DNA of 64,000 bases from a virus. Below the pieces are notes generated by a model. That model saw nothing but the letters and a program-made list of their open reading frames with translations, did not search any database and was not told the DNA's origin. Below, piece after piece: positions 2,467-42,001 of the stretch. Each line of letters opens with the position of its first letter. Position 1 is the first letter of the stretch. The position numbers and the translations under genes are program-made. The stretch spans positions 1 through 64,000 of IMG/VR virus record IMGVR_UViG_3300046167_000873; one strand, written 5' to 3'.

Positions 2467-2760
2467 CTACTTGAGGCCGTGTTCCTTGTCATGAATATAA
2501 AGTTGAAATAAAGCATAGTGCATTACTTTAACCAGATCCTTACGCCACTCATCAGGACCATCACCTTTCTCACCGTACCTGTCTTTGTACTTTTGTAGAT
2601 TGCCCATACAGAAACCAGTACCATGACCATCTCGAATAATAGACTCAAGTGTCTGCTTACCATTCTTTGCATAGTGCTGATCGTACGTACTGTCAATGTA
2701 TTTTTTGAACTCAGCAAGTAGTTCACCTTCACGAAACTTATAATCTATATCATCACTCAT
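2467..2760 (-). CDS. DUF3310-like nucleotide-kinase-associated protein
   Basis: I start at MSDDIDYKF, which has AAGGATT upstream and overlaps the end of the preceding gene. Around residues 45-90 the pattern GTGFCMGNLQKYKDRYGEKG followed by a WRKDL helix resembles the DUF3310 / SaV-like domain found in many phages, where a Cys-Gly-x2-KY motif is typical. That family is often named a nucleotide kinase component without firm biochemistry. The match is by eye. Confidence 0.5.
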   Translation of the reverse strand: MSDDIDYKFREGELLAEFKKYIDSTYDQHYAKNGKQTLESIIRDGHGTGFCMGNLQKYKDRYGEKGDGPDEWRKDLVKVMHYALFQLYIHDKEHGLK

Positions 2761-3364
2761 AATAATCCTTATGCTCCCCATTAAATTTAAATGAACACGG
2801 TGCTTTAATTGTCATTTGTGTATCTTCACACTCATGATCCGCTGTGTTTGGTAGTACTGTATGAACAAATAGTTGGTGGTAGTGCACACCCGAATATTGG
2901 TCTCTATGGTGTGTATTCCATCCGCTGTATATAACACCATCGCCTGGATCTGTTAAAAAGCCTTGGTATTTTTTCTTGCCGTAATCCCACACATAAATCG
3001 GCCACTCATCACCAATTTGATTAATATTGAATGACAATGAAATAGAACAACAAGGCCTATCGGTATGCGGGGTTAAAAAGTCACCATTATTGTACACGCT
3101 ACTGAACCAATATGTCAGTATTAAATCAGGGTGGATATACGTTTTCATTTGCTCGAATAACTCTAAAGCAAGCTCCTTCAATACTGGCGGTTTATGGACC
3201 TGTATTGCTTTGCCTACAGTCCAATCATCAGATGGTTCAGCTTTTTGTTCATCTAACCACTTTAGGTGTTGTTCATCGATATGCAACAACCTTTCTCGGT
3301 CTTTAATCATGCCTTGTATTTTGCATTGATTAAGATCCACGTAGTCGTGTAATTCCGTAATCAT
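2753..3364 (-). CDS. 2OG-Fe(II) oxygenase, prolyl-hydroxylase-like
   Basis: The 203-residue protein has the double-stranded beta-helix signature of 2-oxoglutarate/Fe(II) oxygenases: HTDR at residues 100-103 (the HxD iron motif), then PGDGVIYSGWNTHHRDQ with the distal histidine at about 152-153. Family members hydroxylate protein or small-molecule substrates. This type, with a late PGD-x-IY-x-G strand, resembles prolyl 4-hydroxylase-like proteins of marine T4-like phages. It overlaps the downstream gene by 8 bases. The substrate cannot be read, but the phage also encodes a collagen-like protein with Pro in Y positions. Confidence 0.7.
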   Translation of the reverse strand: MITELHDYVDLNQCKIQGMIKDRERLLHIDEQHLKWLDEQKAEPSDDWTVGKAIQVHKPPVLKELALELFEQMKTYIHPDLILTYWFSSVYNNGDFLTPHTDRPCCSISLSFNINQIGDEWPIYVWDYGKKKYQGFLTDPGDGVIYSGWNTHHRDQYSGVHYHQLFVHTVLPNTADHECEDTQMTIKAPCSFKFNGEHKDYYE

Positions 3365-4950: not shown

Positions 4951-5525
4951 TTAATATTCTCTTTCATTTCTTGTACGAGTTTATATGGATGTCTATGTTG
5001 CATAGTCATTTGTGGTATTTCAATGTGTTGAGGAAGCTCCATTATATGCCAGATCATATCGTGTACTTGTTCCCATGTACAACCTGGAATTCCATCTTCA
5101 TCTTCATTATCTTTAGTCTCAAAATCGTGCCCTGTTATGTATCCCAGATTGAGCGTGGTGATACGGCATTTAACCTTTGAGTTGTATGTTAGGCTGTTTG
5201 ACATATGATCCAGAGCGGCTTTCTGAGCGCCGTAGATATGATCTTGTGAGAGGTTTGGGAATGCAGCTCTTGAAGAAATATTAATAATGAGTTTTTCTGG
5301 ATTGTCTGCCCATGCATTGGCCAGTTTTTCCAGTATAAGCACTTGATCAATATCACGGTGAGCCTGATTAATGAATACCTCCCATGGGTAATCATCATAA
5401 TCTTTCATCCTTAGTACATCTGCAATTCGTAAATAATCTGGATACATTCCACTAAATGTATAACCAATCCCGCCACAGCCTGTAATACCTATACTGCCAG
5501 ATCTATTATATTGCTCAGGAACCAT
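4938..5525 (-). CDS. Short-chain dehydrogenase/reductase-like protein
   Basis: The protein has 195 residues, short for an SDR (usual about 250). GITGCGGIG near residues 13-21 fits the Rossmann nucleotide-binding loop; NISSRAAF near 100 and YGAQKAAL near 118 supply the Ser and YxxxK catalytic residues. SDRs carry out NAD(P)H-dependent carbonyl/alcohol chemistry, often on sugars. It overlaps gp41 and the radical SAM gene on either side, so the two metabolic genes are translationally linked to replication genes. The substrate is unknown. Confidence 0.75.
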   Translation of the reverse strand: MVPEQYNRSGSIGITGCGGIGYTFSGMYPDYLRIADVLRMKDYDDYPWEVFINQAHRDIDQVLILEKLANAWADNPEKLIINISSRAAFPNLSQDHIYGAQKAALDHMSNSLTYNSKVKCRITTLNLGYITGHDFETKDNEDEDGIPGCTWEQVHDMIWHIMELPQHIEIPQMTMQHRHPYKLVQEMKENIKCNR

Positions 5526-6393
5526 TTAATATCTCCATTGATTTTCTTCCAAATAAATTACCTTTGACCGAACACTTGTTGCATGGTGATTTAGATCGGT
5601 CGCCACTTCCTAAACGATTTCTGATTTTTTTCATTTCTTTAGATAACCATACATCTTTCACTGATTGTTGAATAAGATTTCCAACAACAATTTCTTTGCC
5701 CCAATCGTTAGAGCAGAATAAAACATCGCCATTCCAATCTACGAACATTTTGTAGAATGGATAATAACAAGGCGTACCTTCTAGTTCTTTAACAGTGGCT
5801 TCGTCATCGCCTAACCAATCAATGTTTCCCCCACGGTTGTTTAGATGCAAACCATAATCGTCTTGAGAATAATGTGCTCTATAACTCCACTTAGATGCAT
5901 CAACGTCTTGCATAACAGTATCAAAGTGGAGTTGTTGATGTAAACCATCATATAAGTTTATGTACAAAAAATCAAGTCCATAGTTGTATAGTCTTTCAAC
6001 AACGCTCGGATCTAACCGATCACCATTCGTATTACATTCTAAAGTTGCTTTTGGTAAACATATTCTAAAGGCCCTGATAATCTCATCAAATTGAGGATTC
6101 AATAAGTTTTCACTATAACCAGAAAATGAGATTTTACCACTATAATCTATTTCTGCTAGATTTTCTGCAATATACATTGCACCCATCACAGTCATATTTA
6201 AATTACGGTTAGGATATACTTTAGGATCATGTCTTGGGCAGAATACACATGTGCGGTTACACAACTCTGTCGTATTAATTTCAACAGTAAGAATAGAGCT
6301 AAGTGGATCTGTTAAATCCACTTTTTCGAAATGCTCTGACTCTTGCTGTTTCCTATAGTCTAAGAAAGAATCTTTATCCTGCAATGAAGTCAT
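5515..6393 (-). CDS. Radical SAM protein with SPASM-like C-terminus
   Basis: The cluster motif CNRTCVFC near residues 42-49 is CxxxCxxC, the [4Fe-4S] ligand set of radical SAM enzymes. A C-terminal Cys set (CYYPF, CSNDWG, CNKC) with VGNLIQQSVKDVW is typical of SPASM-type auxiliary cluster domains. Such enzymes use S-adenosylmethionine to start radical reactions on peptides, sugars or nucleotides. It is 292 residues, overlaps uvsX by 20 bases upstream and the SDR by 11 bases downstream. The substrate is unknown; sugar or peptide modification is possible. Confidence 0.85.
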   Translation of the reverse strand: MTSLQDKDSFLDYRKQQESEHFEKVDLTDPLSSILTVEINTTELCNRTCVFCPRHDPKVYPNRNLNMTVMGAMYIAENLAEIDYSGKISFSGYSENLLNPQFDEIIRAFRICLPKATLECNTNGDRLDPSVVERLYNYGLDFLYINLYDGLHQQLHFDTVMQDVDASKWSYRAHYSQDDYGLHLNNRGGNIDWLGDDEATVKELEGTPCYYPFYKMFVDWNGDVLFCSNDWGKEIVVGNLIQQSVKDVWLSKEMKKIRNRLGSGDRSKSPCNKCSVKGNLFGRKSMEILNGS

Positions 6394-7489: not shown

Positions 7490-8380
7490 TTAAACGCTAA
7501 GGGCCGGATACGTTTGTGAAATTAGTTCAGACAAGAATTTGTCGCTTTCTTTGTTTTTCTCTTGTTCCTCAAACCAACCTAGTTTTGAAAGAGTAATCGG
7601 AAGATTAATAATAATCGCATGGGTTCCATAGGCCTCACATAAAAGTTGGTACCATGCAGGTTCACTAAATTGTAATCGTTTTGTATCGTATAAGTTCATT
7701 AGTATATTATAGTCAATCATATCTGCCCGATGCATAAGAAGAAAATCACGGCATAAGCTACTATCTACTGAATTGCCTTGGTGGCTAAATTCCATAATAG
7801 GTTGTTTTGAATATATTTGGCTACCTGTTCTTGGATAACGATGGAAACCAATTGGCCTTCTTTCTCTATAGCAAAGTTCTGCTAATTCATAAACCCATCT
7901 TTTTAAGAATCCTTCATCAAGCAAAGTATCATATCGCATACGAATTACAACATCATGTTCTGGCTTGACAAAATCACGACAAGTCATTGCGTGAATAATA
8001 AGCTGTTTTTGTTGTTTACGGAACCACGTCCTTTTTGTGACGTTGTCTTCCATTTGTCGCATTATTTCATTTTCAGTATTTAAATTATCCTCGGCGTATT
8101 CTTTAAGTTTTTTAATTGCACTAGGATCTTTTTTTCGAAGTTTGCGCAGCTGCTCAATATCATGAAGTATTTGTTTTTTACCGGGATTATATGTCATTGG
8201 AGGGGTTTTATATCTTCGGTTTGTAAAAGCATTATACGGCTGATCTTCCCATGTCGTGAATGCATAATCAGCATCAGGTAAAATGCTTTTCATTGTCATA
8301 ATGTTTTCTTCGACAGAAGTCAATGTTTCAAATCCATCATTGTTTGGTATTGCACCAGAAACACATACTATTATTTTCAT
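7490..8380 (-). CDS. Hypothetical protein, possible glycosyltransferase
   Basis: The 296-residue soluble protein begins MKIIVCVSGAIPNND, a beta-strand start seen in Rossmann-like folds. It has a central charged helix (KKQILHDIEQLRKLRKK) and a later VVIRMRYDTLLDEG segment resembling the Arg/Asp donor-site region of WavE-type LPS proteins. It is coupled to a GDPD-like gene and a sugar nucleotidyltransferase, which supports a role in glycan or phospho-glycan chemistry. I cannot assign a family firmly. Confidence 0.6.
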   Translation of the reverse strand: MKIIVCVSGAIPNNDGFETLTSVEENIMTMKSILPDADYAFTTWEDQPYNAFTNRRYKTPPMTYNPGKKQILHDIEQLRKLRKKDPSAIKKLKEYAEDNLNTENEIMRQMEDNVTKRTWFRKQQKQLIIHAMTCRDFVKPEHDVVIRMRYDTLLDEGFLKRWVYELAELCYRERRPIGFHRYPRTGSQIYSKQPIMEFSHQGNSVDSSLCRDFLLMHRADMIDYNILMNLYDTKRLQFSEPAWYQLLCEAYGTHAIIINLPITLSKLGWFEEQEKNKESDKFLSELISQTYPALSV

Positions 8381-8850
8381 GTTGCACCTGCGTTAGATTT
8401 CAATCTTAGATAAACCTCTGCGTCATCAGTACATACACCGCTAAACTTACTTGTATCAAAATAGTGGTTTGGCATAACGCTAATCGATTTTCTTGTGTTA
8501 AATGGTACATCACAACCAGGATATGCCCATATCCAACCCTTTGATGTGATAGTATATTGATCTGTCTCATGCCAAAAGTAGTGTAAATCTAGTACGTCAT
8601 TCTGAAGAGCACACATTGCTTCAATATTCTTGCAGTGTAACCACAAAAAGTTTGATCTGAGTATTAGCCACTGCTTAGAAACATTGTGTTGTGCCGTATC
8701 ATGGCCTAGATACCATTCACCATCAATAAATCTCACATCCACTTCTACGTTTAATGAATGCTCAGCAATGCAGCGATCGATTTGCGTTGGGTGGTTTTCA
8801 AGTGGTGGATCAGAACCTTCTGTGTTACCGCGGTGTGAAATAATCAGCAT
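8377..8850 (-). CDS. Glycerophosphodiester phosphodiesterase-like protein
   Basis: The 157-residue protein starts ISHRGNTEGS (HRG catalytic motif) and continues ENHPTQIDRCI, EVDVRF and GEWYLGHD, the Glu/Asp/His pattern of the GDPD TIM-barrel active site. It is shorter than a full GDPD (about 240-300 residues), so the barrel may be minimal or truncated. GDPDs hydrolyse glycerophosphodiesters; in a phage with glycan genes it might act on a polyol-phosphate polymer. It overlaps its neighbours by 4 and 7 bases. Confidence 0.7.
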   Translation of the reverse strand: MLIISHRGNTEGSDPPLENHPTQIDRCIAEHSLNVEVDVRFIDGEWYLGHDTAQHNVSKQWLILRSNFLWLHCKNIEAMCALQNDVLDLHYFWHETDQYTITSKGWIWAYPGCDVPFNTRKSISVMPNHYFDTSKFSGVCTDDAEVYLRLKSNAGAT

Positions 8851-9617
8851 ATACTTTCCTCATAATTAAATAACTCTTCTGGAGTCCCAATAAGATGAAC
8901 ATTTCCATTCTGCTCGTTTAAATCATATGCTACAAACTTATGACCATCATTGAGAGCTTCAGTATATACCGGGCACATGTAATACTCACCGTTAACTTTC
9001 GTTTCTGGCTTTTTAATCATTTGATTGGCGTATCGATAAAAGTCAGATCCGTGCTTCCAATAATATAATCCTGCAGTTGCATTATCACTAATCAGCTGCT
9101 TCTCTGCAACTTCAGTAATTAAACCATTCTCTATTTTTGCGTATGATGCACCTGGATTATCTGATTTGAACGTGATCATACCACCACTCAATCCTGGCCG
9201 AGATACATACTGTAAAAAATGTTCTGCATTCCAATCTTCCATAAGTTGATCACAGTTAACAAATAATACTGGCCAATCACTATTGATCAAGTGACCTGAT
9301 AGCAAAGCAGTACATGCTGCACCATCGGTCACTTGATCAATATCAACAATATCATAATGTGAACAACTTTTTTCAAATATGTTGTCATATTCTCTTTTAT
9401 AACGGTGATAATTTCGAGTTATAAAAACATAGTGTCCATCAATTGATAAGCTTTCAATAACAGCCCGAAGCATTATATCTTGTTCTTTATATATTGATTT
9501 AAATTCAATCAATGGCTTTGGAAAATCAAACCTTCTTTCTCCGCCTTCGTCTTTGTAATTAGAAAACCTACTACCTCTACCGGCCATAGGTATTACAACG
9601 TTCATTCTCAAACTCAT
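8844..9617 (-). CDS. Sugar-phosphate nucleotidyltransferase
   Basis: The N-terminus MNVVIPMAGRGSRF is the GxGxRF nucleotide-binding loop of RmlA/GlmU-type nucleotidyltransferases, followed by FPKPLIE (lysine-proline motif) near 34 and VLFVNCDQLMED near 115, the metal-binding Asp. At 257 residues it is one catalytic domain without a beta-helix tail. Such enzymes make NDP-sugars from NTP and sugar-1-phosphate. The start is preceded by AGGATAAAGT. It is coupled to the GDPD-like gene downstream. Confidence 0.83.
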   Translation of the reverse strand: MSLRMNVVIPMAGRGSRFSNYKDEGGERRFDFPKPLIEFKSIYKEQDIMLRAVIESLSIDGHYVFITRNYHRYKREYDNIFEKSCSHYDIVDIDQVTDGAACTALLSGHLINSDWPVLFVNCDQLMEDWNAEHFLQYVSRPGLSGGMITFKSDNPGASYAKIENGLITEVAEKQLISDNATAGLYYWKHGSDFYRYANQMIKKPETKVNGEYYMCPVYTEALNDGHKFVAYDLNEQNGNVHLIGTPEELFNYEESIC

Positions 9618-10448: not shown

Positions 10449-10757
10449 TTAATCCTCCAGGATTTGGTTTAACTTAAGTTTAAATGCGTTAATCTTATTT
10501 ACACGGTCTTCACCTGGCCAATAGATATATTCTTTTTCTGGCTCAGTTGAAAGATTGTTGAGTAGTGGTATAACAGCTGCATAGATTGATTGTGCCTTTT
10601 GTCGCCACTGCTCAGATTGTTCCATCCACTCGTTTGCTGTCGATTCTGTTTGTGTAAGCTCTGATCTAACTTCTTGCACTTCAGACAATTCATCTGCGTC
10701 AACAAGAGAAAATCCAAAATCGAAGTTCTGTAAGTCTAGCGTTGATTTTTCTGTCAT
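10449..10757 (-). CDS. Hypothetical protein (102 aa)
   Basis: The gene overlaps the gp43 stop by 4 bases (ATGA coupling). The protein is acidic and helical, with VRSELTQTESTANEWMEQSEQW and a C-terminal stretch WPGEDRVNKINAFKLK. No family recognised. Confidence 0.6.
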   Translation of the reverse strand: MTEKSTLDLQNFDFGFSLVDADELSEVQEVRSELTQTESTANEWMEQSEQWRQKAQSIYAAVIPLLNNLSTEPEKEYIYWPGEDRVNKINAFKLKLNQILED

Positions 10758-12733
10758 CCGAAAAAGTCCTCAATTGAATTTGTTTTTTCTACGTCCCATC
10801 CAACGGCATCAAGTATTGTTTCCATTGGCTTAAGATATCCCTTGTAGAATTGTGTTTCGAAGTCTAAGAATTCGTCTAGAGCAAATTCTTCTGGCAATCC
10901 AGCAGGTGAAGCTATAACTGTTTGGAAGATTGGGTTTGCCTTAACAAGATAGCAAAACTTTATCTTTTCACCTGACTTAATTTCTTCGTATTTCTTTTCT
11001 AAGTTATATTTATTCAACAAATGATTGTAGATTAAACTACCTTTGACTTGTATAGGCGTTCCTTTTTTGTAGATGTTTGTTTTGTCAGCGTATGTACCAG
11101 GATAAATTTTACCTTGTGCATTCTTTTCCCACTTAACAAAGTTACAACTCCTTGGAAATGCGATGTCTTCATAACTCAATGTTCTAAATTCAGTACGGAA
11201 GTTTGAGATATATTTCTGGACGGTTCCCTCATCTGTCGTCATAATGAGCTTAAGTGTCTTTTTAATTTCATCACGGCATACAGCAGGAGTCGATGAACGT
11301 ATTGCTTCGATGCCCATCATCTTCATCTTAGGATCTGTATATCGAACACCTTCTTCATCATAAACGTGCATGATATATCTTTTCTTTGCAGTCCATATAG
11401 CCTTATCGGCAATGTTTTCTCGCTTCATAAACATTTTTTGTGATCTTGCATTGGTGTAATTAGCAAGATCTTTATATGCGCTGTCAATAAACGGCTCAAT
11501 CTTCGACTTCGCAGCGAAATCTAAAAATTCAATAGGATCATCTGGATTAACTTTCTTTACAAGTTTATCAAAGCATACATAAATCGAATCAGTATCTCCT
11601 GCTATAACATAATCTTTGTTCTTTGTGCTGAGCAGTTTGTTGAGATAGTCGTTCATCTTATTCTCAATCCAACGAATGGATAGTTGACCGGCCATTGTAA
11701 TTGCTTCAGCATTCTCGTTATCGAACCACCGAAAATATTGATTTGCTAACGCACCATATGCAGAGTTCAATTGAATCTTTTTACTGTGTTGTAGGTTATG
11801 ATAACGAGAGATGTCAACCTCAAGTTGTTTGGTTGGATTTTTCTGATATTCTCTCTTTGCATCTATCATCTTATTCTTGTATTCTACACGGTCATTATAC
11901 ATTTTTTCCATAATTGCAGGCAAAAATCCTTGTTCTATAGTATCATAGACTTGACCATTAGGCGTGAGTGTGCAGTGTGAGCTCCTTAATTGATCAAGAT
12001 TAACTTCTTGTTTCAACATTGTATCAACACTTACGTTATTAATATGTACGTCACGCTTGCATTCAGGTGATATGTTGTATTGCATAATGAGATGAGGATA
12101 CAGTGAGTTGAGGTCAAATGACATTACCCATTCATGCATACCTACGTGTGGGTCTTTTACGTGGCCACCTACAATACTGCCTGTATTTTGATTACTCTTT
12201 CTGTCATACGTCACCACTTTGTTTGTATCCATTAAATAATTGTGGATGATGACGTCCCATAGTAACACGCTAGCTAAAGTATCTTGGTAGTTTACTTTTG
12301 CATCATATGCAATTGAAAATATTTGGTCGATATAACCGAGTTGCTTCTCTAGTTCTACAATAAGCATAACGTCATCAATGTTGTATTCAATAAACTTTTG
12401 ATGATTGTTCTTGTATAACTCATGTAGATTACCATACTCTGAATAATCTACTTTCTTTCTACCGATCTCTATTTCAGCGATGTAGTCTAGGCGATAAGAT
12501 TCTCTAGGTTGCAGTCTAAACTTTTTGTATATCTTTAGGTAGTCAAGATCTGCTACACCAAGTATAGAATATGTCTGCGACTGCTTATCGCTGCCTGCTC
12601 GATACACCATCTTTTCTTTAACGATGCCCCATGGGCTTAAACGTTTATGTGAATCTTTAGAGCATACCTTTTGAATTCTGTTCACTAAGTACGGTATATC
12701 AAAAAATTCTGAGTTCCACCCCTGTGACAGCAT
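10754..12733 (-). CDS. 43: DNA polymerase gp43, C-terminal part (frameshifted gene)
   Basis: Homologous sequence begins at about 12718 with GWNSEFFDIPYLV (exonuclease motif II) and continues with YNIDDV (exo III), DLNSLYPH, KKIQLNSAYG and AGDTDSIYV, the family B polymerase motifs A, B and C. The ATG at 12733 is simply the nearest in-frame start and is unlikely to be native. The N-terminal exonuclease I part is in another frame just upstream; removing one G from the GGGG at 12719-12722 would join them into an 840-residue protein, near T4 gp43 (898). It replicates the phage genome with the gp45 clamp. Confidence 0.9.
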   Translation of the reverse strand: MLSQGWNSEFFDIPYLVNRIQKVCSKDSHKRLSPWGIVKEKMVYRAGSDKQSQTYSILGVADLDYLKIYKKFRLQPRESYRLDYIAEIEIGRKKVDYSEYGNLHELYKNNHQKFIEYNIDDVMLIVELEKQLGYIDQIFSIAYDAKVNYQDTLASVLLWDVIIHNYLMDTNKVVTYDRKSNQNTGSIVGGHVKDPHVGMHEWVMSFDLNSLYPHLIMQYNISPECKRDVHINNVSVDTMLKQEVNLDQLRSSHCTLTPNGQVYDTIEQGFLPAIMEKMYNDRVEYKNKMIDAKREYQKNPTKQLEVDISRYHNLQHSKKIQLNSAYGALANQYFRWFDNENAEAITMAGQLSIRWIENKMNDYLNKLLSTKNKDYVIAGDTDSIYVCFDKLVKKVNPDDPIEFLDFAAKSKIEPFIDSAYKDLANYTNARSQKMFMKRENIADKAIWTAKKRYIMHVYDEEGVRYTDPKMKMMGIEAIRSSTPAVCRDEIKKTLKLIMTTDEGTVQKYISNFRTEFRTLSYEDIAFPRSCNFVKWEKNAQGKIYPGTYADKTNIYKKGTPIQVKGSLIYNHLLNKYNLEKKYEEIKSGEKIKFCYLVKANPIFQTVIASPAGLPEEFALDEFLDFETQFYKGYLKPMETILDAVGWDVEKTNSIEDFFG

Positions 12734-13277
12734 CGGGATCCATTCTTTCCCAAGACTGCAAAAACTTATTGAGCAGATGAGTCTCGTCTTTACACTTAAT
12801 ATAGTAAACGTCTTTGTATTTTTCAAGATTAGGTTTCTTAAAATCACGTATTCCAAGAGCAACACATAGACCGCCTTTGATAATTGTAATTGCGGTAATT
12901 TCTTTTTCTGCTTTCTCAGGTTCTGGAAAACCATCGTCAGATTTTACCTCGATGTCTATGTAGACGACATTAATCTTTGATGTGTCAGGCTGGAAATTTT
13001 TGTATGTGTCGTAAATATAAAGATAAGCCCAGCGAGATGATCCGTAGATATCAAACCCGTGCCATTGCTCACTCCATTGACGGGCTTCCCAAACATTATC
13101 AAAGTCTACGCGCTTTACATTTGACCCATGGATATCTGTGATTCCTGTAGGCTTTGCAGATGCAGCGAATAAATATGGTTTGTAAGCAATCTTTTTTTGG
13201 AAACGACCGTCGGCGTCAATACCACGAACATACAAGTAATTGCCTTGCTGGATAACACTGGTGTAAAATGAATTCAT
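12699..13277 (-). CDS. 43: DNA polymerase gp43, N-terminal part (frameshifted gene)
   Basis: The 192-residue frame carries the N-terminal domain of family B phage polymerase, including VVYIDIEVK near residue 105 (exonuclease motif I DxE). Homology stops at PDAVTG, where a run of four G bases shifts the frame and the last few residues are nonsense. It starts at the ATG at 13277 with an early promoter upstream. Either the gene is broken or the sequence has an extra base; a functional split is less likely because the break is inside the exonuclease domain. Confidence 0.88.
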   Translation of the reverse strand: MNSFYTSVIQQGNYLYVRGIDADGRFQKKIAYKPYLFAASAKPTGITDIHGSNVKRVDFDNVWEARQWSEQWHGFDIYGSSRWAYLYIYDTYKNFQPDTSKINVVYIDIEVKSDDGFPEPEKAEKEITAITIIKGGLCVALGIRDFKKPNLEKYKDVYYIKCKDETHLLNKFLQSWERMDPDAVTGVELRIF

Positions 13278-13315
13278 ACTATCGGTTTTTTCACCTTATT
13301 TTAGTAAGCCTCGGC

Positions 13316-13345
13316 ATTGTACAACGGAAACTTAGAGAAGTAAAC
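13316..13345 (-). promoter_or_regulatory. Early promoter for DNA polymerase gene
   Basis: GTTTAC at 13340-13345 and TACAAT at 13316-13321 are 18 bases apart on the minus strand, about 39 bases before the gp43 ATG. The promoter lies on the opposite strand to, and just upstream of, the lysozyme start. Confidence 0.72.
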
Positions 13346-13348
13346 CAC

Positions 13349-13795
13349 ATGAATAGAGAATCTGTCTTTGAGCAACTCAAAATCGATGAAGGTATTAAGT
13401 ATGAAATTTATCTTGACCACCTTGGTAATCCAACATTTGGTGTTGGACATTTAGTTGACGACAACGAGCCAGAATATTGGTTGGAAGTAGGGACAGAGAT
13501 TTCACACGATAGAGTATGGCAAGCATTTAACCAAGATTTGAATGAAGCAATCGTTGATTGTAGATCTTTATACGGCGAAGGAACTTTTGATAGATTCCCA
13601 GGTGAAGTACAGGAAATATTAGTCAACATGATGTTTAATCTTGGTAAACCTCGATTATCAAAATTCAAGAAAATGAACACTCATTTATATGATAAAAATT
13701 GGAAGCTTGCTGCGACAGAAGGTCGAGATTCGTTGTGGTATAACCAAGTAACAGCAAGAGCAGAAAGACTTATGACAAGATTAGAGAATGTCTAA
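13349..13795 (+). CDS. e: T4-type lysozyme (endolysin, GH24)
   Basis: This is the only plus-strand gene I support. I start at MNRESVFEQLKIDEG, after the AGAGAAG box; it gives 148 residues, close to T4 lysozyme (164). DEG with the catalytic Glu near residue 11, GHLV near 34 and the AFNQDL and LVNMMFNLG segments match the T4 e family of muramidases. It hydrolyses host peptidoglycan at lysis and has no signal peptide, so it would need a holin. It faces gp43 head-to-head and converges on a small membrane-protein gene. Confidence 0.9.
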   Translation: MNRESVFEQLKIDEGIKYEIYLDHLGNPTFGVGHLVDDNEPEYWLEVGTEISHDRVWQAFNQDLNEAIVDCRSLYGEGTFDRFPGEVQEILVNMMFNLGKPRLSKFKKMNTHLYDKNWKLAATEGRDSLWYNQVTARAERLMTRLENV

Positions 13796-15242: not shown

Positions 15243-15269
15243 CTAACATAACAAATTTAAAATGTAAAC
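15240..15269 (-). promoter_or_regulatory. Early-type promoter upstream of Hsp20
   Basis: GTTTAC at 15264-15269 and TAGTAT at 15240-15245 are 18 bases apart on the minus strand. The -35 overlaps the stop of the metalloprotease gene. Confidence 0.6.
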
Positions 15270-16219
15270 TATTCACAATACTCTATACTACTTTTAGACG
15301 CATCTAGATCTAATTCAATGAAATTTTGTGGTGCATTCATCATAGTTTCGTGCGCCATTGCAATATTACCTAGCGTATCATTCAAAACAGCGACAGCATT
15401 TGCTTCTTCAGAACCCCACATCAATCCGTCGTATTTGGTATTGGTGTTACTAAAGAATGGGATACGCCTTTCTGCATAGGACATTATAGTGCCTCTTGTA
15501 TCGTCCTCTGGCAAACGATAGCCAACACCACCTTGTATTCGTGTATCCTCACCGATATCATGTCTTAGGCCAAAATTGTGGCCTATTTCATGTGCTAGAG
15601 TCATGTTAGCACCATAACAGGCAGTCACACTTGCTCTTGGCCATGAGGTCGTTCCTACCTTTGCAACACCACAATATCTCCACGCTTGGAAATACTCTGG
15701 CAACAACTTTATACCCAAGTCAGCACCGTTACGGCGGGATATATTATCCATTCTACTTTGTAGGTCATTGAGCTGACTGATCATACTTGTTCCGTCCCAC
15801 GCTACTGTCTGTATTTCAGTAACAATAAACTGAACTGGTACACCTGATAATTGAAACGTGTTGTTTAATTTTCTGACTTGCTTAAGTGCAAATCTCCATG
15901 GCTCTCTAATTTCATCGTCAACTTCGATGTATACCATGACATAAGCAAGCCCTGGCATTTTATATAACTCATATGGTGACATGTCTCTGCCACTACATGA
16001 TACCTTTCGATCAGCTTCATTGCATATAAATGGCTGAGGCATATCAGGTGGGTTTTGTGCGTATCGTAATGCTTTAATTGATTCTTGCTGATACCAATGA
16101 ATATTATCAGCGCAGTCTTCGCAGACCTTTCCTGGTGATGAATTGATTGGAACATTGCCTGGTGCTGCAGAAGCAGCCAACGACACTAACATAATTGCAG
16201 TGCACAGTACTCGTAACAT
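15269..16219 (-). CDS. Secreted zinc metalloprotease (metzincin)
   Basis: The 316-residue protein has a Sec signal peptide (LCTAIMLVSLAASA, cleavage near 19) and a mature domain with HEIGHNFGLRHD at 210-221, the extended HExxHxxGxxHD zinc motif of metzincins, plus the Met-turn TIMSY near 244-248. Eight or more cysteines suggest disulfides in an oxidising compartment. The closest look is to reprolysin-like (M12B) or M43 peptidases. It would be exported from the host, so it may act on envelope or extracellular proteins. This is an unusual gene for a T4-like phage. Confidence 0.85.
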   Translation of the reverse strand: MLRVLCTAIMLVSLAASAAPGNVPINSSPGKVCEDCADNIHWYQQESIKALRYAQNPPDMPQPFICNEADRKVSCSGRDMSPYELYKMPGLAYVMVYIEVDDEIREPWRFALKQVRKLNNTFQLSGVPVQFIVTEIQTVAWDGTSMISQLNDLQSRMDNISRRNGADLGIKLLPEYFQAWRYCGVAKVGTTSWPRASVTACYGANMTLAHEIGHNFGLRHDIGEDTRIQGGVGYRLPEDDTRGTIMSYAERRIPFFSNTNTKYDGLMWGSEEANAVAVLNDTLGNIAMAHETMMNAPQNFIELDLDASKSSIEYCE

Positions 16220-28598: not shown

Positions 28599-29755
28599 AA
28601 TAATTTCACCTTTTGTTGATAATCTTTAGTAGACATCCCTGCTTGTTTAAGAATTACATCATCAGATGGATGACTTTTCATTCCATTAAATGTTTCAACT
28701 AATCCGAGCTCCAACATCGCACGCTGTCTACCATATGGATGATCGGTAATACCACAAGAAGACCACAAGCTATCATAATCCAAGTGATCGTAATCAGGAC
28801 CAGGACGGACATAATTTTCAACGTAACGAATAAAGTCACAGCACACATCTTCAGCATTGTAAGGAATCGACCCAGTATCATCATAGATTTTTGACATAAC
28901 TGCATCTAGAAATACCTCCTTCTTTACTTTTTTAGTTGGTGTTGCTAGGTATGAAATACATTCTACAGCATTTGTACCATAATAGAACATACTTTCTTTG
29001 TTAACATATTGAGGAAACCAATCAGCAATGTCAGCAACAACAGCAGCATATTGAAACTTATATCGCTTTAAGCCATTGTCTTCATTCCACTGAAGCATGA
29101 ACTCTCCAATCTCTCTTAAATCCCTTTTATCTCCTTGAGATAACCAAGCAGCGAGGGCTCTTGCAAGCCTTGGCGCGTATTCTCCTAAATAATAATCACC
29201 GCCCTTTTTATAATCTCCACGCGGTTTTGGAAACTGTGGAAACTGGTAACCTACTGATGTATAGAAAGACACTGGATAATGTTTCATCAGGCCTACCATG
29301 TCATCGATGGTATCACATTGATGCAGATTGAATAGGATTGTATTGTGATATCCAGAAGGCTTCTGGGCATAGTTGATGGCTGATCCTGTGACTCTATGCA
29401 ATATGAATATGTACAACCATTCAGGTAAATCATAGAAGTGTTGTTTTCCAGTCCAGTCTTTGGCTACCTGTTCTCTTTGACGAGTACACGTACCTGCTTC
29501 CATTTTTTTCCAATATGGATGAGATGGATTCCAACCATAAAAACAATCATTGATGATCTGAGAAAAGCCTGCATATTTACGTTCAACAACATCATAGAGT
29601 TCTACATTCTCCATAAGATCATCGTTCAGGCCTGAGTCTTTATGTGCAATCATGCCATATGGTTCATCTTCGCACACATTACAAAGATCCTGCTGACGTT
29701 TAGCAAGATCAAAGTATCGAATGAATTCGTCATAATATCGTGTAGTTTCAATCAT
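28595..29755 (-). CDS. aGPT-pyrophosphorylase-like protein (base hypermodification)
   Basis: The 386-residue protein resembles the alpha-glutamyl/putrescinyl-thymine pyrophosphorylase families (helix-hairpin-helix DNA-glycosylase-like) of hypermodifying phages: an N-terminal YYDEFIRYFDLAKRQQ segment and the later HRVTGSAINYAQKPSGYHNTI block with YYLGEYAPRLARAL. These proteins replace a 5-phosphomethyl-base pyrophosphate or phosphate with an amino group donor on DNA. Identification is by eye, but the neighbouring TS-family gene at 31934-32617 supports it. ATGA overlap couples it to the next gene upstream. Confidence 0.55.
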   Translation of the reverse strand: MIETTRYYDEFIRYFDLAKRQQDLCNVCEDEPYGMIAHKDSGLNDDLMENVELYDVVERKYAGFSQIINDCFYGWNPSHPYWKKMEAGTCTRQREQVAKDWTGKQHFYDLPEWLYIFILHRVTGSAINYAQKPSGYHNTILFNLHQCDTIDDMVGLMKHYPVSFYTSVGYQFPQFPKPRGDYKKGGDYYLGEYAPRLARALAAWLSQGDKRDLREIGEFMLQWNEDNGLKRYKFQYAAVVADIADWFPQYVNKESMFYYGTNAVECISYLATPTKKVKKEVFLDAVMSKIYDDTGSIPYNAEDVCCDFIRYVENYVRPGPDYDHLDYDSLWSSCGITDHPYGRQRAMLELGLVETFNGMKSHPSDDVILKQAGMSTKDYQQKVKLL

Positions 29756-30717
29756 AATAAAAAGGTTTCATATCCATCTTTGAGTGATCTGTTTGCATGC
29801 CAATCACCAAGATCATTCCATTCTCTTTGTGAATTGATTGCGTCGGTGTTTATTTTCATTAAGTTTCGGTTGATCTGATCGTCTGAACCAACATTAATAA
29901 AGATAGAACCTGGTTTACCTTCACGATCAAAAAGATCCCAAGCTTTTGCATCATATGCTCCTGTAGTAGGACAAGGCATTGTATCTGCAATTGGAGTTTT
30001 CTTAAGAAAAGGCATCGTTGCTGTTTCAAGAATAGCAACACCTTTTTCACCTTCATGAATATTGCGTGCAACTGCAACACCTTTTGGTGTAGCTTCAGGC
30101 CATCCCATTTGCAATGCACGAATCATTGTACCTGTAGATACTGCACAATATATCTCTGAAGGATCGTGCCCCAGATCGCTGCTGACATTCTTACACATGT
30201 TTACCAAACCAGCAGTGACTGTTGGTGTATCTTTAAATCCGAATGGAATGTAGGTAAAATCTCTTTCCTCAGCCCATTTCTTTGCGTAACTATTAAGCAT
30301 AGGCATCGCAGCAGTTTTAAAGAAGCGAACTTCTACATTGTCATATGCAAACAATGCACCTTGGTGATCAGAAACTTTTTTAGAGGCAGGCATAAAGAAG
30401 ACGCAACGCTTTTCATACCTCTCAGCAATAGCAGCGATTGCATCAGGCGCGTGTCCTTGTCTAGGTGCTACGTAGACGAATGTGTCAGATGGAGCTTGAG
30501 CAATAACCTTCTCACCGCCAAATGCTTTTAATCCACCAGGCGCAAGGTCAGCTCGAAGAATATATTTGTCTTTGTATTTTTCAACGACGGGTGAACCGAA
30601 ACGGGTATCAAATTGACCCCACATTTCTTGGTAATAATCTCTGCCGTCTTGACGAGACATACCTAAAAACAAATCTTTATTAAGGTCACTTTCAGTAATA
30701 TTAAATGATGTAGGCAT
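29752..30717 (-). CDS. PLP fold-II-like (tryptophan synthase beta-like) protein
   Basis: The 321-residue protein has a GLKAFGGEKVIAQA stretch near 60, a following VAPRQGHAPDAIAAIAERYEKRC motif, and SKKVSDHQGALFAYDN near 117. This order resembles beta-family PLP enzymes (ACC deaminase, TrpB type), where a Lys and a Q/N-x-H-A pattern bind PLP and substrate. STGTMIRALQMGWPE near 200 fits a phosphate loop region. PLP enzymes act in phage thymine hypermodification loci. The active-site Lys is not certain. Confidence 0.5.
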   Translation of the reverse strand: MPTSFNITESDLNKDLFLGMSRQDGRDYYQEMWGQFDTRFGSPVVEKYKDKYILRADLAPGGLKAFGGEKVIAQAPSDTFVYVAPRQGHAPDAIAAIAERYEKRCVFFMPASKKVSDHQGALFAYDNVEVRFFKTAAMPMLNSYAKKWAEERDFTYIPFGFKDTPTVTAGLVNMCKNVSSDLGHDPSEIYCAVSTGTMIRALQMGWPEATPKGVAVARNIHEGEKGVAILETATMPFLKKTPIADTMPCPTTGAYDAKAWDLFDREGKPGSIFINVGSDDQINRNLMKINTDAINSQREWNDLGDWHANRSLKDGYETFLL

Positions 30718-37196: not shown

Positions 37197-37616
37197 TTAT
37201 GATAACGTATTTCCTCTAAGTAAAAGCTCACCATTATACTGTGTATTCACTTGAACAGAACCCTCATTCTGTGATACTGCCCACCAAATAGCCCAAACAA
37301 GTTGTACCTGATCAACCTCTTCATATTTAGTCTGTCTAATAAAAAGGTGCTTACCTTCTTCGTCTTCGTTTTGGTATGTTATGAATCCACATTTATTTGG
37401 CTTTAAAGATTCAGGAAGTCCTTCATCTTCTAACCAAGAACATCTAAATGATCTGCACGTAATTGGTCTATCTGGATAAATTGTACAACCTGATTCATAT
37501 TTTGAACACACAGGCATATTAGATGATGCTATAACATCTTCACCAGTCATTGACTTATCATTAAACCATAAAATACCGGTGCAGCATGCATAGCAATCAC
37601 CGCATTCCCTACTCAT
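37197..37616 (-). CDS. YkgJ-type Cys-cluster metal-binding protein
   Basis: The 139-residue protein has the YkgJ pattern: CGDCYACCTG near residue 5, CSKYESGCTIYPDRPITCRSFRC near 37-60. The family binds Zn or an Fe cofactor through eight or so Cys residues; its function is poorly known. It is inserted between gp46 and gp47 with an 8-base overlap to gp47. A second copy of the family is at 59386-59814. Confidence 0.8.
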   Translation of the reverse strand: MSRECGDCYACCTGILWFNDKSMTGEDVIASSNMPVCSKYESGCTIYPDRPITCRSFRCSWLEDEGLPESLKPNKCGFITYQNEDEEGKHLFIRQTKYEEVDQVQLVWAIWWAVSQNEGSVQVNTQYNGELLLRGNTLS

Positions 37617-38718
37617 TAGATATTGCCTCAGAATATAAGTCGTAAAATAAATCGTGCACTGGCTTCGGTGCTGGAAGATTCAAACTATCAATGTACTTGT
37701 TCACGATTGTAGCTGTGTCTTCTGCTTCATTAATAATGTCGTCTGCGTTTTCCATATCAAGACGTAGATTATCTTCTACGATTTGAACGTGACATGGATT
37801 AGCTTGATTGATGCTATCGACAAATAAATCGAAGAGGTATGGATTGTCTTTATTCTTTACGACAATCTTTATGAAGGTATCTTTGAGGTGGCCATGATCT
37901 TCTTTTATAGATGCATGGATATTATCTTCGTTGCTATCATCATAAAATACTTTGTGGAACATAGAGTAAGGATTCTTAATGTATTCTAACTCTCTTGTTT
38001 TAGTATCAAAAATATGAAACCCACGATCATCATCATAATCAGACCATGTCATTTCATATGGTGCGCCTAGATAATGTATATTGTCTTTCGAGGACTTATG
38101 GTGGAAGTGACCAGACATCACCATATCAAACTTGCCAAACGTCGCGTGGCTCATTCCTGAGTCTATCTTTGTACCTTTATACATTTCAAAACCACTGAGC
38201 TCAAGGTGACCCATACATACGTCAGCATTGCTGTTTTTGATTGTATGCATTGCATAATCATAATTCGAACTATTGATCCAAGGCATAAACATTATTTTAC
38301 AGCCATCAAAATCAAAGTCATTAGATGGGTGTGCGTGTACCCACATCTCTGATGTATTGAGTATGTAATCGTTTTTTGGACAGGGCCATTTATCCTTCAT
38401 CCATCCAAGGAGTAGATACGGTGCGTTTACGGCGTTAGTGTTCTTAAAGTATGTATCATGATTACCAACGATACAATGGAGATTGATACCCTTACCATAA
38501 ATTGGACCAAAAAAATAATCATTACAACGCTTAAGACTATCGAAATTGATGTACTTACGTCGATCAAAAATGTCTCCCAATTCAATGATATCTTTGATAC
38601 CACGCTCTTCCAAGGTTGGGAAAAATACTTCGCTATAAAACTTTTCATAATAATTATGAAACTGTGTACTGTCATTTCGAACCCCGAAATGCTGGTCTGT
38701 AATTAAAGCGATCTTCAT
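37609..38718 (-). CDS. 47: Recombination endonuclease subunit gp47 (SbcD/Mre11-like)
   Basis: The 369-residue protein carries metallophosphoesterase motifs: ITDQHFGVRND near 5, LGDIFDRRKYIN near 46, VGNHDTYF near 84 and MGHLELS/SGHFHHK near 170-205. It is slightly longer than T4 gp47 (339). It is the nuclease partner of gp46. Its start overlaps the RuBisCO-like gene stop by 4 bases, so the operon runs RLP-gp47 without a gap. Confidence 0.92.
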   Translation of the reverse strand: MKIALITDQHFGVRNDSTQFHNYYEKFYSEVFFPTLEERGIKDIIELGDIFDRRKYINFDSLKRCNDYFFGPIYGKGINLHCIVGNHDTYFKNTNAVNAPYLLLGWMKDKWPCPKNDYILNTSEMWVHAHPSNDFDFDGCKIMFMPWINSSNYDYAMHTIKNSNADVCMGHLELSGFEMYKGTKIDSGMSHATFGKFDMVMSGHFHHKSSKDNIHYLGAPYEMTWSDYDDDRGFHIFDTKTRELEYIKNPYSMFHKVFYDDSNEDNIHASIKEDHGHLKDTFIKIVVKNKDNPYLFDLFVDSINQANPCHVQIVEDNLRLDMENADDIINEAEDTATIVNKYIDSLNLPAPKPVHDLFYDLYSEAISNE

Positions 38719-39845
38719 TTACTTATCCTTTCGATCTCTTGACGTATTTCCATAGCGCCTGATTTCGTACCAAATTTATGACCATGTACTGCACCACCAG
38801 CATTAGCAAGATAATCATTACCAATTCTATTCGTAATCGGTTCGATGAGTCCTGCATGCATACCACAACTAAGTATTGGTATTGTATTACATTCTCGTAG
38901 CGCGTGTACACAGTTCATTGTTTCAGAATCGTCGTGGTTACTATAACCACCAAGCATTCCTACTTGAATAGAATCAACACCGCAGAGTGTTGCGAGACGA
39001 CACATGACTGGCCATGATATACTATATCGGTGTGATTTATCGCACATGACTTTTGAGCCACTGCTTTGATAATGCATAAACAGGGGTAAATCCATACGAC
39101 GGATACTATGGTATGCACCTAATCCGCTAAAGACATTAACATGCACACCACGACCACCTAATTCGCTCACCATCAAAGCTCTCTCACTAATCACATGAGG
39201 ATCACCATTTATGGTATGGCAAAACATTATATTAGAATTAATTCGTTCTAAATAATTTGCGACTGCATCGACACGTTCATATAAAGGAGCTATTGCTGGG
39301 TTAGACATGATTTCATCTTCTTTGATAAAATCAACACCACCATCAACCAGCATTGATACCATGTCGATCAACGTCTTTGTAGTAATCCCAATCTTTGGTT
39401 TGATAATACTACCAAATAACGGTTTATCATATTGCCCAGTTTTTTCTCTTAGACCAGATAACCCAATCTTTGGCTTATAAAAAAGCTTTTCAATTCTATC
39501 AGGGAAGGATATATCAATGAGTCGGCATTTTTCAACAATTTCAATGTCAGTATGACCGCCCATCAATTGACAAAGCAAATGGCTAATGCCGTCGTTTTTC
39601 CAATCTGTATTACAAACAGGATATGCAATACAAATAACGTCGTCACGATTCAAGTCCACAATTTTACATGCGAACTTCTCTATCATTTCCTGCGTTTCCC
39701 AGTCATTACGAATATCAGGATTACCGATACTCTGACCAATTGCTATTGCGTAAGCTGCTTCTTCAATTGTTGTCTTAGATTCGATTTCATAGCAAGCAAG
39801 GACATAGTCATTCCTTAACTCTTCCATCTTCCGATATAAGTTCAT
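38715..39845 (-). CDS. RuBisCO-like protein (form IV type)
   Basis: The 376-residue protein aligns by eye to the RuBisCO large chain TIM barrel: GSIIKPKIG (K149, equivalent of active-site Lys175), GGVDFIKEDE (K175, D177 and E178, equivalents of the carbamylated Lys201 and the metal ligands), LSCGMHAG and AGGAVHGH (phosphate-binding loops). Loop-6 Lys is absent (GMLGGYSN) and the Arg of HR is Tyr (FMHYQ), and the N-terminal domain is short. So it keeps the metal/carbamate site but not carboxylation, as in form IV proteins that enolise or isomerise sugar phosphates. ATG with GGAG box; overlaps cupin and gp47. Confidence 0.88.
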   Translation of the reverse strand: MNLYRKMEELRNDYVLACYEIESKTTIEEAAYAIAIGQSIGNPDIRNDWETQEMIEKFACKIVDLNRDDVICIAYPVCNTDWKNDGISHLLCQLMGGHTDIEIVEKCRLIDISFPDRIEKLFYKPKIGLSGLREKTGQYDKPLFGSIIKPKIGITTKTLIDMVSMLVDGGVDFIKEDEIMSNPAIAPLYERVDAVANYLERINSNIMFCHTINGDPHVISERALMVSELGGRGVHVNVFSGLGAYHSIRRMDLPLFMHYQSSGSKVMCDKSHRYSISWPVMCRLATLCGVDSIQVGMLGGYSNHDDSETMNCVHALRECNTIPILSCGMHAGLIEPITNRIGNDYLANAGGAVHGHKFGTKSGAMEIRQEIERISK

Positions 39846-40233
39846 CTAATTGTTCTCCACGGTATTCTGTTATCTTATCTCCTGGGATACTAGGAGCTTT
39901 CACGCATACTATCACACAATCTTCTAAAAATACAGGTTTAACGATAGATTTTTTAGGAACAACAAATACAGATTCAGGTTCAATAATCGTACCATAAATT
40001 GACATCTTGCCTGTCACGAGTACATTGTATTCATCATGAGATCGATGGTAGTGTGCTGGCCAATCTTCCCCCTTGCTGTGTTTAAAAACACCAACTTCAA
40101 ATTTAGAAGTCTTTAAAACGGATGGTTCGAAATTACCGATAAACCAACCTCTTGTAAATTCAGAAAGTGGTATTACCCTCATTTGTCGGTTACCAAATTT
40201 TAAACCGAAAATTCTTTTAATCAACTTAATCAT
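39808..40233 (-). CDS. Cupin-domain protein
   Basis: I start at MIKLIKRIFGLKF, which overlaps the carbamoyltransferase stop; upstream ATGs in frame lie deeper in that gene and are less likely. Residues near 50-64 (AHYHRSHDEYNVLVTG) are cupin motif 1 (HxHx-E), followed by a strand GTIIEPESVFVVPKK and PVFLEDCVIVCVKAPS. Such single-domain cupins occur in sugar and phage glycan loci and can be isomerases, epimerases or metal enzymes. It overlaps the RuBisCO-like gene by 38 bases. Confidence 0.75.
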   Translation of the reverse strand: MIKLIKRIFGLKFGNRQMRVIPLSEFTRGWFIGNFEPSVLKTSKFEVGVFKHSKGEDWPAHYHRSHDEYNVLVTGKMSIYGTIIEPESVFVVPKKSIVKPVFLEDCVIVCVKAPSIPGDKITEYRGEQLDELISEDGRVKE

Positions 40234-42001
40234 TTTTACGTACCACATAATTGCCCATGAATAAAATATCAATATCCATTTTCATAAACGCATTTAATGC
40301 ATCAGTAGGAGTTTCAACTATAGGTTCGCCATTATCATTGAATGAAGTATTAAGTACAATCGGCACACCAGTTTTCTCATTAACAGCACGAAGCAGTTTT
40401 GTTACTGTATGATTTTGTTCTTCGTTAACTGTTTGAATACGGCAGCTACGATCAAGATGTGAGATTGCTGGTATCTCAGAAACTTTATCTTCTTTTACTG
40501 TAAACGCATAAAGCATATACGGAGATTCAAAATCTTCTTCAAAGTAATCTGTAAGATACTCATCAAGAATAATACCGGCAAACGGCCTCCACTCTTCTCT
40601 ATGCTTCACCCTTTGATTAAGTATATCTTTATTTTCGGCTAATTTTGGGCTCATTAAAATAGACCGTGAACCAAGTGCTCTTGGACCAAACTCAGATCTA
40701 CCTTGAAACCATCCTACTATTTTATTATCGTTAATACATTCTGCTGCGATGTTATCAATATCAAATGGTCTATGTTCATAAAACAAACTATTTTCTGTTG
40801 ATCTATTAAATTCTTTGATCGCCTCTTCTATTTCATTACTATTATAATGCTTACCTAATAATGCAATATTATCAGGCATAGTAGGATGCTTACAACCTTG
40901 GCTAACAAGACCTAGAAACGCAGCACCTAAATGTAATCCTGTATCTGTAGTATACGGCGGAATGTGTACTCCTTTCATCATCGGCGTCTGTTTTAGCCAA
41001 GTGTTTGCTTTTACATTTAAAAATATACCACCTGAAAAACATACGTTATCTTCTAAGTATCCTTCCTTATAATATAAGGTCATCATTTTCTGAAGTGCGT
41101 CTTCGTGGTTACGCTGTAGAACGTATGCTTTTTCTGCATGTGACAGAGTAGTGCATTCTTCTGATGACCAATGCGGGTGATGCTCTCCAATGTATGGTCT
41201 GCCGTTATAACCAATCTCTTCATTTGTTATGGTGTAAATATATTTTTTTTCAAAATCTGGGTCTTTACCTAAATCTGAACCGTATGCACAAAGTCCCATA
41301 ATTTTTCCGTGCATAGAATCCATTTCACCACGGTAATGTTTTCCTGTATTATGCTCTATATCAATAATACTGCAAAAAATGCTTTCTGAACCTATTGCCC
41401 AATGTGAGCCTAAACAATTTGTATGTGGCAAATCGTGGAATATTCTAAACATGGATTTGTTTTTATTAAAATATCCTAACGCACCTCTTTCTGTAATAGA
41501 GGTTGGAAAAACAAATCTGCCTTCATCGTCTCGGGCTACGTGTGACGGAATACTCTCGCCTGAACCATCATTTGTAATAAACGCACCTTCTTCATACGGG
41601 CTTGTATAGATAGACACTGCTGCGTGGCAACTATGATGGGGATAAAATTCTATTTTTGCTTTTGGAAATAATCCCTCAAGCCGTTTTTGTAATTGATGTT
41701 CAAACCTTGATATTTTAAAAAGAGGTGATCCTGGAGTAGCGACACAAACCATATCGATCATATCTACAGTTAGTTTACCTGCTTCAAGGCAATACATAAT
41801 ACTTTGTTGCGGCTCTGATCCATCATATTTTACGCGAGAAAGCCTTTCTTCTTGGATACTACAGATGTGTTCTCCATCTATAAACAGGCTCGCTCCAGCA
41901 TCATGCACCCATTCTACCAGATGTTGTTCGATATCATTTTTAATATGGTCTTCATTTCTAGGATTCCAACCCCACGCACCATACACGCCGAGAATATTCA
42001 T
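40226..42001 (-). CDS. NodU/TobZ-family carbamoyltransferase
   Basis: The 591-residue protein has the family layout: N-terminal ASKHA-like domain with YPHHSCHAAVSIY near 118 (metal His) and GAFITNDGSGES, then the C-terminal part with GWFQGRSEFGPRALGSRSI near 430 and EWRPFAGIILDEY near 465. These enzymes transfer a carbamoyl group from carbamoyl phosphate, with ATP, to a sugar, antibiotic hydroxyl or, in some phages, hydroxymethylcytosine DNA. Its start overlaps the gp55 stop by 4 bases (ATGA) and it leads a three-gene insert between gp55 and gp47. Confidence 0.85.
   Translation of the reverse strand: MNILGVYGAWGWNPRNEDHIKNDIEQHLVEWVHDAGASLFIDGEHICSIQEERLSRVKYDGSEPQQSIMYCLEAGKLTVDMIDMVCVATPGSPLFKISRFEHQLQKRLEGLFPKAKIEFYPHHSCHAAVSIYTSPYEEGAFITNDGSGESIPSHVARDDEGRFVFPTSITERGALGYFNKNKSMFRIFHDLPHTNCLGSHWAIGSESIFCSIIDIEHNTGKHYRGEMDSMHGKIMGLCAYGSDLGKDPDFEKKYIYTITNEEIGYNGRPYIGEHHPHWSSEECTTLSHAEKAYVLQRNHEDALQKMMTLYYKEGYLEDNVCFSGGIFLNVKANTWLKQTPMMKGVHIPPYTTDTGLHLGAAFLGLVSQGCKHPTMPDNIALLGKHYNSNEIEEAIKEFNRSTENSLFYEHRPFDIDNIAAECINDNKIVGWFQGRSEFGPRALGSRSILMSPKLAENKDILNQRVKHREEWRPFAGIILDEYLTDYFEEDFESPYMLYAFTVKEDKVSEIPAISHLDRSCRIQTVNEEQNHTVTKLLRAVNEKTGVPIVLNTSFNDNGEPIVETPTDALNAFMKMDIDILFMGNYVVRKND

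Follow-up and report, generated by a model that had tools for sequence, protein, structure and literature searches.

A branch of RuBisCO-like proteins in uncultured aquatic phages and its possible role in surface decoration

Gene content of the locus

This analysis concerns a RuBisCO-like protein (RLP) encoded in the IMG/VR virus record IMGVR_UViG_3300046167_000873, and the genes that accompany it. The window, that is, the whole stretch of DNA analyzed, comprises positions 1 to 64,000 of this record, a 150,920-base virus contig that encodes a T4-type gp23 and whose portal protein is approximately 53% identical to the portals of cyanophages and of a Stenotrophomonas phage. A first-pass annotation, made from the sequence alone, had described genes for an RLP, a cupin and a carbamoyltransferase inserted between those for gp55 and gp47. 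The open reading frames (ORFs) and their matches to phrog families confirm this arrangement, which is as follows:

37609..38718, minus strand: gp47 (SbcD-like), downstream flank of the insertion; phrog_100, E=3e-98
38715..39845, minus strand: RLP, 376 aa
39808..40182, minus strand: small cupin with HxH...E metal ligands, identified by phrog_24762 (E=7e-23) and a family alignment
40226..42001, minus strand: carbamoyltransferase of the NodU/NolO O-carbamoyltransferase type, 591 aa
41998..42516, minus strand: gp55 late sigma factor, upstream flank of the insertion; phrog_234, E=8e-52

The RLP and cupin genes overlap by 38 bases, as originally described. Overlaps of 4 bases also connect the RLP gene with that of gp47, and the carbamoyltransferase gene with that of gp55; the operon spacing runs on into both flanks. 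The cupin frame (39808-40272) is open as far as 40272, with a family-conserved start at 40182, which is probably the actual start, rather than a far-upstream TTG. A gap of 43 bases then separates the cupin from the carbamoyltransferase. The 8-base overlap reported at this junction is obtained only with a start at 40233, and the alignment favors 40182 instead. The carbamoyltransferase belongs to the NodU/NolO O-carbamoyltransferases, with domains PF16861 (E=3e-68) and PF02543 and a match to phrog_1601 (E=8.5e-118). The same gene order is found in a contig from another sample (L001), at 99.9% identity over 6330 bases; thus, the locus is not an assembly chimera. PADLOC defence models gave no match among the six proteins tested.

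Fold and active site of the RLP

The RLP matches the Pfam families RuBisCO_large (PF00016, E=2e-33) and RuBisCO_large_N (PF02788, E=5e-7). Its AlphaFold2 model has a mean pLDDT of 91.4, and the closest overall fold is that of the form III Rubisco 3a12, with a TM-score of 0.90 over the query. By sequence and predicted fold, the protein is therefore a member of the RuBisCO superfamily, as the first-pass annotation had proposed, and belongs to form IV in the broad sense.

The residues of the active site are retained selectively. As initially noted, the KPK motif (K149, K151) and the metal/carbamate residues K175, D177 and E178, equivalent to spinach K201, D203 and E204, are kept, and the loop-6 lysine and the arginine of the HR pair are lacking. 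Specifically, Lys334 is replaced by Y301, H294/R295 by Q260/S261, H327 by Q294, and E60 by G37/Q38; that is, none of Lys334, R295, H294 and E60, found in bona fide Rubiscos (forms I-III), is kept in this protein. We tabulated the active site for 46 members of the clade described below (18 cellular, 28 phage). K149, K151, K175, D177, E178 and G350 of the window protein are identical in all 46, and G351 in all but two. In Rubisco numbering, K175, K177, K201, D203, E204, G381 and G403 are kept throughout, and G404 in nearly all. Lys334 is Tyr and H294 is Gln in every row, R295 is Lys, Arg or Ser, E60 is never Glu, and the residues of the P2 site are replaced. At H327, the cellular members and 16 of the 28 phage members retain His.

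From established Rubisco chemistry, retention of the metal site along with changes in K334 and the P2 site makes metal-assisted enolization plausible, and carboxylation not. The remodeled second phosphate site suggests that the substrate is a monophosphate. The RLP is thus probably not a CO2-fixing enzyme, in agreement with the original expectation. The contrary hypothesis, in which a CO2-fixing or adenosine monophosphate (AMP)-salvage Rubisco boosts the carbon or nucleotide metabolism of the phage, draws on the intact metal site and on the fact that form III Rubisco provides both the closest fold and the best sequence scores. The score for the form III equivalog, though, is 165.6 bits, against a cut-off of 497, and Lys334, R295, H294 and E60 are replaced in all 46 tabulated members; we consider this hypothesis extremely improbable.

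A distinct clade, mostly in uncultured phages

We calculated a tree of 69 rows, from which form II, IV-Photo and Global Ocean Sampling (GOS) sequences are missing, and in which DeepYkr reference sequences were recognized by their match to 3qfw. Profile scores for the IV-Photo structures 1tel and 2qyg are below those for form III. In this tree the phage RLPs and their cellular relatives form one clade, with support of 100/100, apart from form I, form III, Candidate Phyla Radiation (CPR) Rubiscos, OiaX/3nwr, MtnW and DeepYkr. The clade is characterized by the signature GQS..GNP..R, KPK, KEDE, H.N, Q(K/R/S)SG, GM.GGY, SCG.

This placement bears on whether the protein is a catabolic carbon-acid RLP of the apionate or tetronate type, i.e., a decarboxylase, hydrolase or transcarboxylase. 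These enzymes belong to the same superfamily, and the better matches include 3nwr and OiaX-type proteins. Their group is a separate clade, however, and the score for the OiaX NCBIfam is 121.5 bits, with a cut-off of 700. The reference RLPs also adjoin a gene for a four-carbon acid sugar kinase, and none was seen near the phage RLP. A role of this kind thus appears very unlikely.

Searches with tblastn revealed no RLP relatives in 50,697 isolate-phage records. By contrast, pattern scans of IMG/VR identified 165 places when based on a single protein and 332 when based on an alignment. We collected 79 near-complete RLP proteins, or 43 after clustering at 85% identity. gp23 is present in 11 of the 19 long RLP phage records, including that of the window; several of these records are fragments. 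Among cellular organisms relatives are rare, with 22 loci (35-51% identity) in 84,980 species genomes. These include loci from SAR11, Legionella, Azospirillum, Elusimicrobia, Verrucomicrobia, a Patescibacteria bin and archaeal metagenome-assembled genomes. The contigs from SAR11 (167 and 233 kb) and Legionella (1-Mb) look chromosomal, and some of the short contigs labeled as cellular may themselves be phage DNA. A literature search yielded no paper connecting RLPs with phages, with a nucleotidyltransferase or, in polysaccharide synthesis, with a cupin, though preprints and most subscription papers were outside this search, and this absence is weak evidence. What is new here is the clade and the four-gene context described next; the fold is already known, and the function is proposed.

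A separate observation concerns a contig labeled Sphingobacteriales (L098), in which an RLP, a cupin, a nucleotidyltransferase and a carbamoyltransferase are found among phage-like genes; this contig is probably phage DNA.

Conserved partners of the RLP

We scored the genes found within 8 genes of the RLP in 81 loci, which are partly redundant. A nucleotidyltransferase of 240 aa is present in 75 of these, a 148-aa protein resembling glycerophosphodiester phosphodiesterases (GDPD-like) in 67, and the cupin in 54. Both the nucleotidyltransferase and the GDPD-like gene are found in all 19 long RLP phage records, and the carbamoyltransferase in only two. Thus, the pairing of RLP and cupin anticipated by the first-pass annotation recurs; the carbamoyltransferase is a member of the operon and not a conserved partner. 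The other two partners, overlooked at first, are encoded in the same window, where profile searches located them as adjacent genes at 8377-9617:

7490..8380, minus strand: putative glycosyltransferase-like protein, adjoining the GDPD-like gene; no Pfam match
8377..8850, minus strand: miniature GDPD-like protein, 157 aa; family profile E=1.4e-49
8844..9617, minus strand: sugar-phosphate nucleotidyltransferase, 257 aa; family profile E=3.7e-71

The window nucleotidyltransferase has no Pfam match of its own, and was assigned through the family profile. This profile matches 4evw, the nearest solved structure, with E=2.5e-35, and one member of the family (L009) scores 22.1 bits for NTP_transferase (PF00483-type; GxGxRF...KP), above the cut-off of 21.2. 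The GDPD-like family has the motifs HR...EN, ExD and GHD, with catalytic-type residues that are invariant in 24 of 24 sequences. The AlphaFold2 model of the window member has a pLDDT of 93.9; a fold search with it returned weak matches, GDPDs among them (TM ~0.6, E ~0.01-0.02), and the family has a weak sequence match to 7e0v (E=1.7e-4). The label given to the 7490..8380 product was assigned by eye, from its likeness to recurrent neighbor families.

The association extends to cellular genomes. Of the 22 cellular loci, 20 have the nucleotidyltransferase on the flank of the RLP, and the other two are short contigs. In Azospirillum (L099:3939-6704 of Azospirillum oleiclasticum) and Elusimicrobia, which are among the deepest of the cellular members, the genes are contiguous in the order GDPD-RLP-cupin-nucleotidyltransferase. 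An RLP lies within 10 kb in 78 of the 80 best IMG/VR cupin loci. Among the isolate-phage records, single-sequence tblastn detected the nucleotidyltransferase in at least 19 and the GDPD-like gene in at least 16; all except one are Synechococcus phages.

In SAR11 loci (L091:7214-7951 and similar), two nucleotidyltransferases flank the RLP, and in the copy adjacent to the GDPD-like gene the nucleotide-binding signature is degenerate.

The cupin and methylthio-sugar salvage

The cupin on its own is weak in Pfam (Cupin_7, E=0.16). It nevertheless aligns with 25 relatives, among which the HxH...E metal ligands are invariant. The sole known pathway that combines an RLP with a cupin is that of Rhodospirillum rubrum, in which the RLP (Rru_A1998) produces 1-methylthioxylulose-5-phosphate (MTXu-5P) and the cupin (Rru_A2000) converts it to 1-deoxyxylulose-5-phosphate (DXP) and methanethiol (PMC4958253). 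Since the two genes are side by side in the window, a similar methylthioadenosine (MTA)-isoprenoid shunt might be envisaged, whereby the RLP isomerizes 5-methylthioribulose-1-phosphate, the cupin yields methanethiol and DXP, and by-products of S-adenosylmethionine are recycled during infection.

To assess the phage cupin in this light, we compared its profile with the R. rubrum MTXu-5P sulfurylase structures 3jzv and 3kgz; neither was retrieved at E<=10. In a positive control with a true RLP-cupin pair (L446), the cupin matches 3jzv and 3kgz with E-values of 4e-52 and 3e-55, and the RLP matches 3qfw with 5e-134. The phage RLP, furthermore, falls outside the DeepYkr clade; it has KEDE in place of the KDDH of DeepYkr, and the KPQ motif of that group is also absent. 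Together, these results argue against membership in the methylthio pathway, though the RLP may still catalyze a similar isomerase reaction. The conserved neighbors are, in addition, a nucleotidyltransferase and a GDPD-like gene, and the cupin has been lost in some lineages. The methylthio-sugar recycling suggested by the first-pass annotation therefore has a very low probability in our assessment.

Clues to the chemistry and glycan context

The genes around the RLP encode sugar epimerases, FkbM-type and other methyltransferases, DegT aminotransferases and glycosyltransferase-like proteins. Another early suggestion, that the RLP-cupin pair makes a sugar phosphate or a precursor used in decoration, agrees with these glycan-type neighborhoods. 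Gene fusions are also informative. The nucleotidyltransferase family includes N-terminal HAD fusions, also in loci with an RLP (for example L161:2959-4329), and C-terminal HAD fusions, as beside cupin and GDPD-like genes with no RLP (L366:6102-7202). In cyanophage S-SKS1 (L455:7001-8428) its fusion partner is a DHBP synthase (RibB) domain (E=5e-65). The substrate of DHBP synthase is ribulose 5-phosphate. RibB also occurs near the RLP (L035 and L237-L244), and the fusion and these neighbors suggest a parallel activated four-carbon unit. DHBP synthase was also considered as a strict replacement of the RLP; this is ruled out, as both are present in those same loci.

Lastly, a LicD-family gene adjoins the RLP gene in three Legionella. 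LicD proteins move phospho-units from CDP carriers. Taken together, the HAD and DHBP fusions, LicD and the glycan-type surroundings favor a glycan unit that is derived from a ketose phosphate and activated by a nucleotide.

A more specific version of this idea invokes a phosphodiester-linked polyol or tetritol unit: the nucleotidyltransferase would make a CDP-polyol or CDP-keto-polyol, a LicD-like or other transferase would move the phospho-unit, and the GDPD-like protein would trim or recycle the phosphodiester. The Legionella LicD genes and the S-SKS1 fusion are consistent with this scheme, as is the fact that the GDPD-like gene accompanies the nucleotidyltransferase even without an RLP. The Legionella LicD query, however, found no homologue in the phage RLP loci, and the function of the GDPD-like protein is assigned from its motif and a weak fold match only. 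We regard this specific version as unlikely.

Proposed function

Our preferred interpretation, held with moderate confidence, is that the RLP represents a new clade and is catalytically competent, although not as a carboxylase, within a four-part module (RLP, usually a metal cupin, nucleotidyltransferase and GDPD-like protein) that makes a phosphorylated precursor for nucleotide activation and glycan decoration. The scheme that we infer from the protein family, conserved residues, clade, co-occurrence and gene context encompasses catalysis, the order of steps, the substrate class and the glycan target. Activated by a carbamate on K175, and with Mg2+, the RLP would most likely enolize, and hence isomerize, a monophosphorylated ketose, probably a pentulose phosphate. 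The cupin, where present, would further process this product, and the nucleotidyltransferase would join a nucleotide to the phosphate so formed. In a last step, glycosyl- or phospho-transferases would set the unit onto a glycan of the phage or of the host surface. The carbamoyltransferase may be an additional decorating step, specific to the window phage.

Several observations weigh against this interpretation. About 30 kb lie between the two gene pairs of the window. The nucleotidyltransferase and GDPD-like genes are frequently present without an RLP, which implies a wider role for this pair. One subgroup of the phages, several SAR11 loci and Legionella have no cupin near the RLP; the cupin is thus not essential everywhere. 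The window RLP is on a long branch (0.72), has Gln at the position of H327 and ends in a shorter C-terminus; we are accordingly less sure of its activity than of that of the family. To name CDP, or any other nucleotide, as the carrier would be a guess. Because the cupin loci are mostly near an RLP, and the other two genes are often without one, the nucleotidyltransferase and GDPD-like protein resemble a core of more general use, to which the RLP and cupin would form an exchangeable front end.

Known roles of RuBisCO relatives are carbon fixation, nucleoside metabolism, methionine salvage and sugar-acid breakdown. If correct, our proposal would assign a new function to the fold and reveal a new way in which surface sugars are made. 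The broader picture would be that of a RuBisCO branch that has spread mainly through uncultured aquatic phages, is also present in SAR11, Legionella and archaea, and operates in a dedicated four-gene pathway from a ketose phosphate to a new kind of activated surface-decoration unit; we judge the chances of this picture to be about even. Matches to a "viral RuBisCO" should not be taken as carbon fixation. The contiguous four-gene set of Azospirillum and Elusimicrobia is compact, and can be directly expressed and assayed.

Other features of the window

The DNA polymerase region reads as two overlapping ORFs in different frames (10754-12934 and 12699-13277), owing to a frameshift, an error or real splitting; an opposite-strand ORF (13268-13795) adjoins them. 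A reprolysin-like (M12B-type) metalloprotease with a signal-like N-terminus is encoded at 15269-16219 (PF13583, E=5e-11). Between uvsX- and dnaB-like genes, at 4938-6393, are a radical SAM/SPASM protein and then a short-chain-dehydrogenase-like protein. The product of 2753-3364 resembles a 2-oxoglutarate/Fe(II) oxygenase by eye and has no Pfam match; that of 29752-30717 is a candidate PLP-dependent (PALP-like) enzyme (Pfam E=1e-6, below the cut-off). Between gp47 and gp46, at 37197-37616, is a small cysteine-rich protein of the CxxCxxCC type (phrog_9155).

Comparison with known systems

The R. rubrum pair and the phage pair both place a non-carboxylating RuBisCO fold, with probable ketose-phosphate enolization, beside a cupin. 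They differ in the clade and motifs of the RLP, in the cupin family, and in the nucleotidyltransferase and GDPD-like partners and glycan context of the phage genes. The MtnW/Ykr enolases, which act on 2,3-diketo-5-methylthiopentyl-1-phosphate (2oek, 4nas), likewise keep the equivalents of K175, K201, D203 and E204 and lack the loop-6 lysine; they are a separate clade, whereas the phage RLP has KPK, KEDE, H-x-Q-x-SG and GM-x-GGY. OiaX/3nwr share the fold and metal site with the phage RLP, but retain the HR pair and the loop-6 lysine and adjoin four-carbon acid sugar kinase genes. Form III Rubisco (3a12, 8dht, 2cwx) is closest in overall fold, and differs in E60, H294, R295 and K334, such that carboxylation is not expected of the phage protein.

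The glycan clusters of cyanophages S-CAM9, S-SM2, Bellamy and S-SKS1 contain the same nucleotidyltransferase family among glycosyltransferases. Most also have the GDPD-like gene, which our searches did not detect in S-SKS1, and some have the cupin; in place of an RLP they have HAD domains, phosphoheptose isomerase, aldolase or DHBP synthase. Finally, the GOS study reported 65 RuBisCO homologues outside forms I-IV (PMC1821046). These homologues and the RLP clade are both marine metagenomic and outside the known forms. A marine clade was reportedly later named IV-GOS. The unplaced GOS homologues may overlap with the RLP clade, which hints at the identity of some of these marine sequences.

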